Assembly (NCBI GenBank): GCA_003597955.1
Contig: QZJU01000004.1
Location: forward strand, 1 to 28,180
Source of the DNA: Candidatus Parcubacteria bacterium
GTDB taxonomy: Bacteria; Patescibacteriota; Patescibacteriia; PEXW01
Reading direction: 5' to 3'
DNA: 28,180 nucleotides
The notes under the pieces were generated by a model. That model had not been told where the DNA came from and searched no databases. It worked only from the letters and a program-made list of their open reading frames with translations. Positions 19,954 to 28,180 of this stretch are shown piece after piece; position 1 is the first letter of the stretch, and each line of letters starts with the position of its first letter. The position numbers were made by a program, and so were the translations under genes.

Positions 19954-19988
19954 AAAAAACCCCTTGCTTTTTCAAAAGTAAGGGGGTT
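19954..19988 (-). terminator. Intrinsic terminator of the 117-residue protein gene
   Basis: On the minus strand AACCCCCTTAC / AGCAAGGGGTT forms a strong stem followed by TTTTTTATT. It starts a few bases after the stop codon at 19995 and separates the array from murJ. Confidence 0.85.
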
Positions 19989-19994
19989 AGGGGG

Positions 19995-20348
19995 TTATCT
20001 TACGCCAAGAAAATAAAAATCTGGTGTAAAAGTCTGCTTGATCGGTGCCCAAAGTTGTTGGGGCTTGCCTGCACCGTTTTGCTCGAAAAATACAACTCTG
20101 GGGTCTGAAGCTGAAACGGCTTCCAGATCCTTTGGGCAGACTATCTTATATTCAACCAAATCCGGGTGAACCTTTAGCAATTCCTCGTAATCGGAACACT
20201 CGGCGTATGTGAGCCCGCGGTTTTTTAGCTCACACGCAAATTGCGCAAACCTCGATGCATACGCACTTTTCAAAAGAACGTAGGTTTTGTTGTTAATCTT
20301 GAAAACCAACTCCTCCCAAGCTGAATCGCTCTCGTGGTAAAAGGGCAT
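19995..20348 (-). CDS. Unknown 117-residue soluble protein
   Basis: The start is the ATG at 20348 (MPFYHESDSAWEEL), 8 nt after a strong GGAGG; an extension to 20393 has no such site. The product is soluble, with aromatic and acidic residues throughout (EELVFKINNKTYVLLKSAYA, then DYEELLKVHPDLVEYKIVCP). Two cysteines (in FACELKNRG and AECSDYEE) are present but no known motif. It is the last gene of the small-gene array, has a perfect terminator after it and a long structured leader before it with a recognisable promoter (20545-20572). Function unknown. Confidence 0.75.
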   Translation of the reverse strand: MPFYHESDSAWEELVFKINNKTYVLLKSAYASRFAQFACELKNRGLTYAECSDYEELLKVHPDLVEYKIVCPKDLEAVSASDPRVVFFEQNGAGKPQQLWAPIKQTFTPDFYFLGVR

Positions 20349-20383
20349 TGTTGAATTCCTCCGTGAATAATTGGTTTTTATTT

Positions 20384-20400
20384 CTTTCAGCAAAGTATTT
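20384..20400 (-). repeat. Leader hairpin (array second-hairpin type, degenerate)
   Basis: On the minus strand AGCAAA-TAC-TTTGCT is followed by GAAAGAAA and an A-rich leader to the ribosome site. The 3' flank GCTGAAAGAAA matches that of the conserved hairpins further up the array. Confidence 0.5.
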
Positions 20401-20527
20401 GCTTTTCCTGACCGGGTTACGCCGTGCGAATGATACCCGCGTTTGCTTTCAATTCAATAGGGAGAGAGTCCCACTAAATATCCATTAAACGTGAGATCGT
20501 AAGAAGGGTAACCCGGCCGGGAAAAGC
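20401..20527 (-). ncRNA. Large structured leader or small RNA closed by 20-bp inverted repeat
   Basis: Arms 20401-20420 (GCTTTTCCTGACCGGGTTAC) and 20508-20527 pair at 17 of 20 positions, with a symmetric 3-nt internal loop. They enclose 87 nt including the small hairpin GGGACTCTCTCCC. A minus-strand promoter lies just before it, so the RNA would be the 5' part of the mRNA for the 117-residue protein or a separate small RNA. I do not recognise a known riboswitch class, 6S or SRP RNA motif in it. Confidence 0.55.
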
Positions 20528-20544
20528 AACTAATTCACACCCCG

Positions 20545-20572
20545 ATTATAATCCCCTGGCCTGAAAAGGCAA
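20545..20572 (-). promoter_or_regulatory. Sigma-70-type promoter for the structured leader
   Basis: On the minus strand TTGCCT (20572-20567), a 16-nt spacer and TATAAT (20550-20545). Transcription would start near 20538. The -35 box lies inside the hairpin at 20561-20589. Confidence 0.6.
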
Positions 20573-20589
20573 ATTTATTGCCTGTTCAG
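20561..20589 (-). repeat. Second hairpin of the array (variant)
   Basis: On the minus strand CTGAACAGGCAA / TTGCCTTTTCAG forms a stem with a TAAA loop. It stands directly after the terminator at 20590-20621, as in the other intergenic modules, but does not share the CCAGC core. Confidence 0.6.
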
Positions 20590-20621
20590 AAAGAGGAACG
20601 GGCAATTCAAAGAATTGCCCG
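20590..20621 (-). terminator. Terminator of the pilin-like protein gene
   Basis: On the minus strand CGGGCAATTCTTTGAATTGCCCG is a perfect stem with a short loop, followed by TTCCTCTTTCT. It begins about 17 nt after the stop codon at 20638. Confidence 0.75.
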
Positions 20622-20637
20622 TGCTTTCCTTAAGAAC

Positions 20638-21039
20638 TTAATCTTCTTTGTCGTAAACCAGATGCTCGGGGTCAGCCTTTGGTCCATAAATCGTCCAGGT
20701 GTCAATTATTCCGTCTTGGTCTAAATCAACTGTCGCCTGCGCGTAGAAAATCTTCTTGGCCAAATTTGGCGGAACATCGGTATCGATTATTACTTCATAT
20801 TCATAAGGATCCTGATTGGATTTTTCAAATCCGATTGCGGCCAAATCTGTGGTGTATTCACAATGCAGCTGGAAATACAAAAATTCTTTGACTTGGATTT
20901 CCAGCAAACCCTGTTGGGCAAAATCCCAAGAATTATTGAACTCCGCGCTTGACGAATCGGTTTGGCTGATTAATAAAGCCAGAAATAATACGCCGATTAG
21001 CAAGAAAATAATACTTGAACTAGGAAACGAAGAAGATAT
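20638..21039 (-). CDS. Secreted pilin-like protein with non-canonical start codon
   Basis: The frame ending at 20638 has TTG (21003) as its only standard start, but no ribosome site precedes it and it would cut the hydrophobic segment. AGGAGG at 21054-21049 instead points to ATA at 21039 (9 nt) or ATT at 21045 (3 nt). With ATA the product has 133 residues: a Ser-rich start, a hydrophobic helix (IIFLLIGVLFLALLI), an amphipathic helix, then YTTDLAAIGF and YAQATVDLDQDGIIDTWTI. The last two are the hallmark segments of the globular part of bacterial type IV pilins, but no prepilin peptidase site (GFTLIE) is present. It is coupled to the 43-residue protein gene. The pilin relationship is inference from motifs. 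Confidence 0.65.
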   Translation of the reverse strand: MSSSFPSSSIIFLLIGVLFLALLISQTDSSSAEFNNSWDFAQQGLLEIQVKEFLYFQLHCEYTTDLAAIGFEKSNQDPYEYEVIIDTDVPPNLAKKIFYAQATVDLDQDGIIDTWTIYGPKADPEHLVYDKED

Positions 21040-21054
21040 TTTAATAAACCTCCT

Positions 21055-21186
21055 TTATTTTTGGTTTTCAATCTGCTGTTTTTTCAGCTTCTCGGCCGTG
21101 AACATAATCCGAGGCCAGGCCAAACCGATGACACAACCAATAATCACTACATAGATCAAGAATCTGATTGTCGAATCCTTTTTCAT
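21055..21186 (-). CDS. 43-residue membrane microprotein
   Basis: ATG at 21186, 9 nt after AAGGAGG, opens a 43-codon frame: MKKDSTIRFLIYVVIIGCVIGLAWPRIMFTAEKLKKQQIENQK shape, i.e. basic start, one transmembrane helix (about residues 9-26) and a charged C-terminal helix of about 17 residues. Its TAA stop overlaps the AGGAGG of the pilin-like gene, so the two are made together. The hydrophobic-helix-plus-amphipathic-tail layout resembles the N-terminal spine of pilins, which may be relevant given its partner. Function unknown. Confidence 0.7.
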   Translation of the reverse strand: MKKDSTIRFLIYVVIIGCVIGLAWPRIMFTAEKLKKQQIENQK

Positions 21187-21219
21187 TTTTCAAAACCTCC
21201 TTGTTTTCTTTGTTTTCAT

Positions 21220-21268
21220 TCTCATTTTCAGCCTATAAATTTTTGCGTGAATTTACAAGTTGAAATTG
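21220..21268 (-). repeat. Second hairpin of the array (variant)
   Basis: On the minus strand TGTAAATT and AATTTATA form the inner stem and the outer TTTCA pairs with TGAAA. The 3' flank GGCTGAAAATGAGAA matches the conserved flank of the core hairpins. It follows the terminator at 21268-21298 and precedes the A-rich leader of the 43-residue gene. Confidence 0.55.
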
Positions 21269-27333: not shown

Positions 27334-27363
27334 CCCCTCCATATAAGTGAAAGAAAATTTCTT

Positions 27364-27397
27364 ATCTTGACTGGTCATTTACATGGCCAACCAAGAT
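27364..27397 (-). repeat. Second hairpin of the array (variant)
   Basis: On the minus strand ATCTTG-GT-TGG-C-CAT-GTAA-ATG-A-CCA-GT-CAAGAT is a symmetric stem with two internal loops, followed by AAGAAATTTT. Same position relative to terminator and next gene as the core hairpins. Confidence 0.7.
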
Positions 27398-27401
27398 GAG
27401 G

Positions 27402-27426
27402 GCAGGATTTTTTAAAGAAATCCTGC
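27402..27426 (-). terminator. Terminator of the 102-residue membrane protein gene
   Basis: On the minus strand GCAGGATTT pairs with AAATCCTGC; the following sequence CCTCATCTT is a poor U-tract. Starts 17 nt after the stop codon. Confidence 0.6.
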
Positions 27427-27443
27427 AAAAAACTTTTTGGTTA

Positions 27444-27752
27444 TCATTTATCTTGAATGTAAATTAGATAACCACAATCTGTAGGTTGAGGAATTGTAAA
27501 TTTGACTTTGGGATTTTCTGCTTTCATTTTTGCCAAAGCCTGGGCAAATAAATCATGACGATAGTTAAGATAAACCGGTATGTAGTAAACGTCATTGCCT
27601 TGATAATGCGCAGTGGTAAACCATGGGTCTTTTGCCGGGTCATAGGTTGAGTCCAAATATAACCCAACAGCCATTCCACATACAAAACCCAATACGACAA
27701 CCCCAAGTACACATTTAAAGCAAAACCAAAAGATCTTACTCAACAAAGCCAT
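27444..27752 (-). CDS. Unknown 102-residue membrane-anchored protein
   Basis: ATG at 27752 lies 6 nt after GGAGG. One N-terminal transmembrane helix (about 8-30, VLGVVVLGFVCGMAVGLYL) is followed by an extracytoplasmic domain of about 70 residues with YDPAKDPWFTTAHYQGNDVY, YIPVYLNYRHDLFAQALAKM and a final TDCGYLIYIQDK. The alternating pattern suggests a small alpha/beta domain; a pentapeptide-like or permease role can be excluded by size. No family recognised. Confidence 0.75.
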   Translation of the reverse strand: MALLSKIFWFCFKCVLGVVVLGFVCGMAVGLYLDSTYDPAKDPWFTTAHYQGNDVYYIPVYLNYRHDLFAQALAKMKAENPKVKFTIPQPTDCGYLIYIQDK

Positions 27753-27775
27753 AATTCCTCCATTTGTTTATTGTT

Positions 27776-27838
27776 TCTTTTTATCAATCTAAAGACATGG
27801 TTGGCATCGGAGTTGATGTCTGCAGGTTGATAAAAAGA
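27776..27838 (-). repeat. Second hairpin of the array (variant, 12-bp perfect stem)
   Basis: On the minus strand TCTTTTTATCAA (27838-27827) pairs perfectly with TTGATAAAAAGA (27787-27776), with an inner AGACAT/ATGTCT stem. It lies 24 nt upstream of the 102-residue gene start and ends in AAAAAGAAAC like the others. Confidence 0.8.
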
Positions 27839-27949
27839 ATTGTCAAAGTTCTTATGCTTTATACCCACGAATTTGAAGGCTTTTCCAAATTCCTAGATAT
27901 AAGCCAGACATAACCAATCTTAGAGATAACTGTTTATTCTCCGAAGCTG

Positions 27950-27986
27950 CTCATCCTTCTTCGCTCTATGAGCTTCGAAGGATTAT
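27950..27986. repeat. Imperfect hairpin
   Basis: CGAAGC-TG-CTCAT pairs with ATGAG-CTTCG around a loop of 13 nt. Adjacent copies of TTATTCTCC occur at 27942 and 27983, a direct repeat flanking the hairpin. Confidence 0.5.
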
Positions 27987-28037
27987 TCTCCTTTTCAGCC
28001 CTTTAAAGTGAATTAACTGCTTGCGTAAGGAGAATAA
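27983..28037 (-). repeat. Second hairpin of the array (variant, 11-bp perfect stem)
   Basis: On the minus strand TTATTCTCCTT (28037-28027) pairs perfectly with AAGGAGAATAA (27993-27983). The 3' arm is preceded by GGGCTGAAAAGGAG, matching the core 3' flank, but no gene follows within 200 nt. Confidence 0.75.
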
Positions 28038-28043
28038 AAAACG

Positions 28044-28070
28044 AGGTCCTCTTGTATCTAGAGAGCACCT
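28044..28070 (-). terminator. Terminator with no gene immediately upstream
   Basis: On the minus strand AGGTGCTC.../...GAGGACCT stem with single mismatches, followed by CGTTTTTT and directly by the hairpin at 27983-28037. Only 17 nt separate it from the preceding hairpin at 28087-28123, so the module is empty. Confidence 0.7.
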
Positions 28071-28086
28071 TTATATCAAATTACGC

Positions 28087-28123
28087 TTTTCACCCCTGCT
28101 CTCTCTTTAATCAGCGGTGAAAA
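28087..28123 (-). repeat. Second hairpin of the array (variant)
   Basis: On the minus strand TTTTCACCGCTG (28123-28112) pairs with CAGGGGTGAAAA (28098-28087) with one mismatch. Same T-tract and A-tract ends as the other copies. Confidence 0.7.
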
Positions 28124-28180
28124 AACTCTGAATTTATTAGGTTTTCAATTTAACAAAGCAGTATATATCCCTTTAATGCT

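Follow-up and report, generated by a model that had tools for sequence, protein, structure and literature searches.

A single-promoter gene array in Patescibacteria with conserved tandem-hairpin separators and cargo that is non-homologous between genomes

Introduction

The early region of bacteriophage T7 gives rise to a polycistronic mRNA that is processed by RNase III, and mRNAs can be stabilized by hairpins such as the ompA-type stem at the 5' end and the REP/BIME-type stem at the 3' end. In chromosomal integrons, attC repeats are alike within a species and different between species (PMC8876359). Here, we compare these systems with a locus in a genome of Candidatus Parcubacteria bacterium (assembly GCA_003597955.1), in which the minus strand of contig QZJU01000004.1 carries an array of mostly small genes; the 28,180 nucleotides (nt) of this contig, all of which were analyzed, are referred to as the window. 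Our computational analysis shows that the array has a single promoter, that a module of two tandem hairpins specific to this locus separates nearly all of its genes, that the second hairpin covaries as expected for a folded RNA, and that the genes, referred to as cargo, have strong Shine-Dalgarno sequences (SDs) and are non-homologous between related genomes.

The window is the entire contig 8 of a 990-kb genome that is 98.5% complete, and its end falls within the array promoter. Four genomes of the family are present in our collection, i.e., that of the window (G000), one of the same genus (G001), and two others (G002 and G003). All four are drafts; the array is complete or nearly so in three of them and is cut by a contig end in one. 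Because genes were called by a simple script based on open reading frames (ORFs) and SDs, the starts of small ORFs are approximate. In the family genomes, the array sits between a DUF4012 gene upstream and murJ downstream; between genomes, the MurJ proteins are 72-89% identical and the DUF4012 proteins 54-66%. In G002, DUF4012, murJ, and the array are each on separate contigs, and we infer the position of the array from the promoter and operators that it shares with the other genomes.

Results

At almost all boundaries of the array, the stop codon is followed by a GC-rich hairpin (hairpin 1), a second hairpin (hairpin 2), an unstructured A-rich leader, a strong SD, and the next gene, in the order described in the first-pass annotation of the window; one exception is the boundary between genes 10 and 11 (g10 and g11), which has no hairpin. 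Hairpin 2 adjoins hairpin 1 directly and absorbs its tail. Of the 8 tail positions, 6.8 are paired downstream in the array, whereas the value for 66 control terminators from this genome is 2.55 (p=1.5e-4); pooling three genomes gives p=3.5e-7. The T-tract initially noted after hairpin 1 exists as this absorbed tail; however, it is often a mixed pyrimidine tract with a weak terminator score.

The tandem-hairpin layout is confirmed, and it is locus-specific. First, a strict structural scan of the 8.3-kb array detected six modules on the minus strand and none on the plus strand. The remaining 19.9 kb of the window contained none, a 381-kb sample of the genome contained one, and 253 kb of other Patescibacteria loci contained three; the control sequence amounted to ∼38% of the G000 genome. 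Second, an independent, looser detector found 7.25 modules per 10 kb in the array versus 0.13 elsewhere, so the location of the hairpins is non-random. Third, a CCAGC...GGYTG core is present in six copies, and the exact pattern is found in five of these and nowhere else in the 990-kb genome. The six copies of CCAGCYG...GGCTG proposed at the outset therefore hold for the core but not letter by letter: the sixth copy, at 25833, has CTTTCCAGC, and the copy at 25345 reads CCAGCCA rather than CCAGCYG. A genome-wide repeat is ruled out because the core pattern is confined to this contig and, elsewhere, modules are ∼50-270 times less frequent.

Covariation supports hairpin 2 as a folded structural element. 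In an alignment of six CCAGC-type copies that come from two genomes, 97.9% of the cells are paired, 5 of 16 pairs have double-sided changes, and none of 500 shuffles reached the covariation score; for five G003 copies, which have a different consensus, 98.6% of cells are paired and again 0 of 500 shuffles reached the score. Covariation thus exceeds chance in two lineage-specific sets; with small alignments that draw in part on a single genome, it represents support rather than proof. In the 27 copies of hairpin 2 from the four genomes, the stem ranges from 15 to 23 rungs, with 17-20 in most copies, and it usually contains 1x1 mismatches. The loop is mostly of 3-8 nt, and in all copies the 5' arm is the pyrimidine arm and the 3' arm the purine arm. 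The sequence is genome-specific and homogeneous within a genome; it also varies strongly inside one array, in which the copies H4, H12, H13, and H14 (hairpins of the window are numbered H1 to H14 from the promoter) are alike in shape and unlike in sequence. A double-stranded DNA site for one regulator, as first suggested, is unlikely, given that the CCAGC half-sites lie at a variable distance of 26 to 29 nt and that entire stems change from genome to genome without loss of the fold. Alternatively, hairpin 2 might be bound as RNA by a protein or the ribosome to bring about joint post-transcriptional control of all cargo. Its homogeneity within a genome, its position immediately upstream of the leader and SD, and a C-A 1x1 mismatch in six of six CCAGC-family copies are consistent with such a site. 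However, in the case of H4, H12, H13, and H14, recognition would have to depend on shape alone, and we consider this explanation very unlikely.

The array is a single operon with one promoter and two operator palindromes. This promoter, TTGACA-N17-TATACT, is of the sigma-70 type; its -10 box TATACT lies at 28160..28165, and it is completed by contig C14, which has a 75-nt overlap with the window end and contains the -35 box TTGACA and, immediately upstream, two GGCTAANNTTAGCC-type palindromes. It is followed by a structured 5' leader RNA with a GAGAGAGC...GTGCTCTC element (27842..28155) that is conserved in three genomes; the stretch 28026-28168 is 72% identical to the G001 locus L061. Promoter and operators are also present at the head of the array in G001 (L061) and G003 (L059), and their equivalent is present in G002 (L089/L092), where a search with GGCTAANNTTAGCC led to the array and the palindrome pair lies ahead of a TTGACA promoter. 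No sigma-70-like -35/-10 pairs were found in the separators between cargo genes, which argues against one promoter per gene. Similarly, GGCTAANNTTAGCC is absent from the separators, its sites being confined to the head of the operon and a few loci outside the array, which argues against the operator per gene that the first-pass annotation had envisaged.

In total, GGCTAANNTTAGCC sites were found in G000 on C2 (21527), C9 (302 and 25094), and C14 (94 and 113), in G002 on C26 and C35, and in G003 on C11 and C29, and the reversed control pattern gave 0 matches. In both G002 and G003, for example, an off-array site lies ahead of an RNase HII-like gene. These sites are a candidate for a small regulon of an unnamed transcription factor.

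The hairpin layout between genes is kept in all four family genomes, and the genes differ in each. Among ∼30 array proteins from the four genomes, the only significant pair is g6/g7 within G000, and no cross-genome homology was significant (best E=0.059). In this comparison, the frame of g11 was misread; a counterpart of g11 was found in the other genomes neither in the collinear alignment nor by reading the g11 sequence. In the non-coding alignment of G000 and G001, the leader, H3, H4, H8, H14, and a rod-shaped RNA are collinear with 72-94% identity, and H4 is retained in G001, which lacks the gene located after H4 in G000. Separators align and cargo differs, in agreement with the initial idea of cassette-like gain and loss. 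In these genomes, conservation lies in the non-coding separators and not in the coding content, contrary to what would be expected.

Such persistence of separators and anchor order around entirely different cargo would also be seen if the separators were recombination sites at which cassettes are exchanged as in integrons, with the exchange driven either by a tyrosine recombinase or through homologous recombination of near-identical hairpins. In this respect, H10 and H11 are identical across 40 nt while the genes that precede them are only 28-33% alike, and genome-specific hairpin families resemble the attC repeats of chromosomal integrons (PMC8876359). However, the integron integrase model TIGR02249 gave no match over cut-off in the four genomes, in which weaker tyrosine-recombinase-type scores were obtained as in all control genomes, and RYYYAAC and GTTRRRY attC boxes were found together in only 1 of 10 intergenic regions and not at module ends. 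These results rule out integron membership and extend to the four genomes the early observation that the window has neither integrase nor attC. Moreover, no recombinase gene was seen in or beside the arrays, the strong sequence variation among hairpins of one array argues against recombination sites, and fast divergence together with gene conversion could give the same result. Of the recombination site proposed at first, the integron version fails and a site for another recombinase or for homologous recombination is left, which we regard as very unlikely. It is also unlikely, if somewhat less so, that the array is an undescribed Patescibacteria gene-exchange platform in which the separators are both insertion or replacement sites and RNA boundaries and which functions without integron integrase and attC.

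A strong SD precedes 26 of 28 array genes compared to 42 of 302 genes (14%) in a genome sample, a comparison that is partly biased because small ORFs were chosen with the help of SDs. Transmembrane (TM) segments are enriched (20 of 28 array genes versus 46%; p=0.016). Read from sequence rather than family matches, the cargo appears to include lipoproteins, single-pass proteins, and a pilin-like protein, and one cargo protein looks like signal peptidase I. Homologues of two array proteins are carried by Parcubacteria-type Patescibacteria. The paralogues g6 and g7 (28-33% identity) belong to a family of membrane proteins of 370-440 amino acids (aa) with a VKxKVCRP end and no Pfam assignment. Elsewhere in Patescibacteria, this family is scattered and is represented by a lone chromosomal gene that lacks such modules; it is therefore ruled out as a hallmark of the array. 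A phage origin of the cargo was rejected as well: there was no convincing PHROG match, and one protein had no viral relative. Finally, g11 has a perfect SD (GGAGG), yet no in-frame ATG, GTG, or TTG at the right distance; its start is possibly ATT or ATA, or the sequence contains an error.

A single promoter combined with a hairpin pair at every boundary needs to be reconciled with expression of the distal genes. Judged by its tail, hairpin 1 may not terminate efficiently. The median tail score of 26 copies is 2.9 versus 3.5 for terminator-like controls (p=0.012), with no difference from all convergent-end hairpins (p=0.47); the last terminator of the array scores 5.0. Strong termination at every step is unlikely, because the tails fall short of those of clear terminators and, in G002 and G003, are rich in C. 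The tract before hairpin 1 is U-rich (47% T versus 32% in controls); a role of this tract in sequestering the SD was rejected, as duplex energies did not differ from those of controls (p=0.17). A boxA in the 16S leader was also considered, and no usable motif was found.

Hairpin 1 could also be a leaky terminator that is overcome by processive antitermination mediated by the leader RNA or a factor, in which case the depth of transcription would be regulated and hairpin 2 would shield the leftover U-tract. Terminator-like hairpins at nearly all boundaries of a one-promoter operon, the structured leader kept in three genomes, and the U-rich tract ahead of hairpin 1 are compatible with this idea. 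However, the 98.5%-complete genome has one NusG gene and, therefore, no RfaH/LoaP paralogue, and the C-rich tails in G002 and G003 are weak. Moreover, at gathering score Rfam gave 0 matches in the window and 0 in the arrays of L059 and L061, and no match resembled the put/EAR antitermination RNAs; matches above threshold in L059 were RNase P RNA and tRNA outside the array. We consider antitermination rather unlikely.

All array features are on the minus strand, and coordinates refer to the window. H1 (27775..27839), a hairpin 2-type structure formed by TTCTTTTTATCAA/TTGATAAAAAGAA, lies ahead of g1 (27444..27752; 102 aa, one TM segment). The latter is followed by hairpin 1 (27402..27426), H2 (hairpin 2; 27364..27397), and H3 (27168..27357), a long imperfect stem ATATGGAGGGGGTG / CACCTCCAGATC around a structured domain that is kept in G001 and G003. 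Next is g2 (26786..27124; 112 aa) with its module at 26708..26775 (hairpin 1, 26756-26773; H4, 26708-26755), then g3 (26392..26679; 95 aa, TM) with its module at 26313..26384 (hairpin 1, 26355-26384; CCAGC-type H5, 26313-26353), and g4 (25897..26271; 124 aa, predicted lipoprotein) with its module at 25791..25859 (hairpin 1, 25835-25859; CCAGC-type H6, 25791-25833).

The stretch from 25790 to 25300 contains RNA structures and no gene. Here, H7 (25678..25787) is a long hairpin ACCCAGCACCAGTTTCC/GGAAAGTGGTGCTGGGT; the copies at 27839, 27357, and 25787 are long arms around an insert. It is followed by a tRNA-like RNA (25546..25652), which folds into a five-arm cloverleaf with an ACCA end and an atypical anticodon arm, by the module of this RNA at 25453..25534 (hairpin 1, 25507-25534; hairpin 2, 25453-25502), and by H8 (25306..25345), a CCAGC-type hairpin 2 whose L061 counterpart (3921-3977) precedes an unrelated gene.

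The array continues with g5 (24988..25278; 96 aa, two TM segments) and its module at 24910..24975 (hairpin 1, 24954-24975; H9, 24910-24953). The two members of the Patescibacteria-wide membrane protein family, g6 (23764..24867; 367 aa) and g7 (22476..23630; 384 aa), are followed by modules at 23678..23756 (hairpin 1 and H10, 23678-23717) and 22391..22465 (hairpin 1 and H11, 22391-22430), respectively. Then come g8 (21868..22359; 163 aa, TM) with its module at 21787..21852 (hairpin 1, 21830-21852; H12, 21787-21829), g9 (21310..21756; 148 aa, soluble) with its module at 21221..21298 (hairpin 1, 21270-21298, and H13), g10 (21055..21186; 43 aa, TM), and g11 (20638..21045; about 121-135 aa, start codon uncertain), whose module at 20553..20620 comprises hairpin 1 (20600-20620) and H14 and is conserved in G001 (89%). 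The region 20596-19995 contains the separate, conserved rod-shaped RNA (20396..20532) and, 3' of it, one further gene, g12 (19995..20348; 117 aa), which is probably not part of the operon.

The rod-shaped RNA lies beside murJ in all four genomes (window, 20396-20532, minus strand; L061, 1202-1336; L059, 414-546; G002, C85:5778-5912). It has a large central bubble and a 6S-RNA-like shape without an Rfam match, and a search of 140 further genomes of the class did not detect it. In G000 (20545-20572) and G001, it is preceded by a promoter-like TTGCCT-N16-TATAAT. The tRNA-like RNA has an acceptor stem, a short D arm, a 9-bp variable arm, and a 5-bp T arm with a 7-nt loop (minimum free energy, -53 kcal/mol), and a similar fold is present in the G003 array (L059, 2055-2178, minus strand). 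ARAGORN (default settings) and Rfam accept it as neither tRNA nor tmRNA, and the canonical tmRNA is located elsewhere; it is possibly non-coding cargo. H7 is a diverged copy of a family of long hairpins ACCCCGCACCACTTTCC...GGAAAGTGGTGCGGGGT dispersed in the genome (L020, 913-1144 and 1994-2234; L033, 8346; window, 18118-18286 and 25678-25787), several of which lie between a terminator and a TTGACA promoter.

Discussion

We tentatively favor a model, to which we give slightly less than even chances, in which the array is an operator-controlled operon with freely swapped cargo and with kept RNA separators that insulate, process, or stabilize each cistron. In the polycistronic transcript, hairpin 2 would pair with the pyrimidine tail of hairpin 1 and mark, or become, the boundary. 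Cleavage would occur in or beside hairpin 2, most plausibly by RNase III, and each resulting cistron would be protected at its 3' end by hairpin 1, begin with a structured 5' end, and carry an optimized ribosome site of its own. Placed between two separators, any gene could then be expressed stably and independently. We favor insulation at the RNA level because the tails are weak, there is no NusG paralogue, and RNase III is encoded. The RNase III model TIGR02191 scored over cut-off in three of the four genomes, with partial matches in the fourth, and the intercistronic stems span about two turns, i.e., 15-23 rungs with few 1x1 mismatches in 27 hairpins. G000 has a canonical RNase III gene on C6; a second, weak RNase III-like match lies at C9:8474-8914 (minus strand). 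Of the roles suggested by the first-pass annotation, a 5' stabilizing or processing stem is, we infer, the best.

Several observations weigh against this model. The hairpins are 0-4 nt apart, leaving little unpaired RNA for a single-strand-specific nuclease, and some stems comprise 14-16 pairs, which is short for an RNase III substrate. Several G000 hairpin 1 tails (CTTTTTT, ATTTTTT) resemble usable terminators, and partial termination is possible. A promoter of an unrecognized type may be present between genes, and the bias in the SD comparison bears on the argument from strong SDs.

The bacteria described here are thought to live attached to other cells. The locus seems to be organized for the exchange of cargo, most of which consists of small proteins that are membrane-bound or secreted. 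It raises two testable questions. One is how bacteria with few strong SDs keep the genes of one transcript insulated from each other; the other is by what route surface or secreted proteins are gained and exchanged in small genomes.

A literature search returned little that matched and nothing on such an array. Because integrase and attC are absent and cleavage is a prediction, we assign the array neither to integrons nor to RNase III-processed operons. With integrons, it shares one upstream promoter and a series of promoterless, unrelated, small ORFs, each followed by a structured element of ∼110-130 nt; in both, these elements resemble each other within a species and differ between species (compare PMC8876359). 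By contrast, it lacks IntI and RYYYAAC/GTTRRRY and has two tandem hairpins instead of one, a strong SD per gene, and fixed flanks. Long operons under processive antitermination (RfaH/LoaP; put and EAR RNAs) likewise have internal terminator-like hairpins and a structured leader; the array differs in that its genome has no NusG paralogue and no Rfam match to antitermination RNAs. The T7 early region also has imperfect hairpins of ∼20 rungs with 1x1 mismatches at gene boundaries and an SD per gene. The array adds a GC-rich hairpin in front, is chromosomal, and turns over its cargo, with cleavage being our proposal. Like the ompA- and REP/BIME-type stabilizing hairpins, the separators provide a stem followed by an A-rich single-stranded leader and an SD, and a hairpin at the 3' end of the cistron; unlike them, the array joins both elements head-to-tail at each boundary, with hairpin 2 pairing the tail of hairpin 1.

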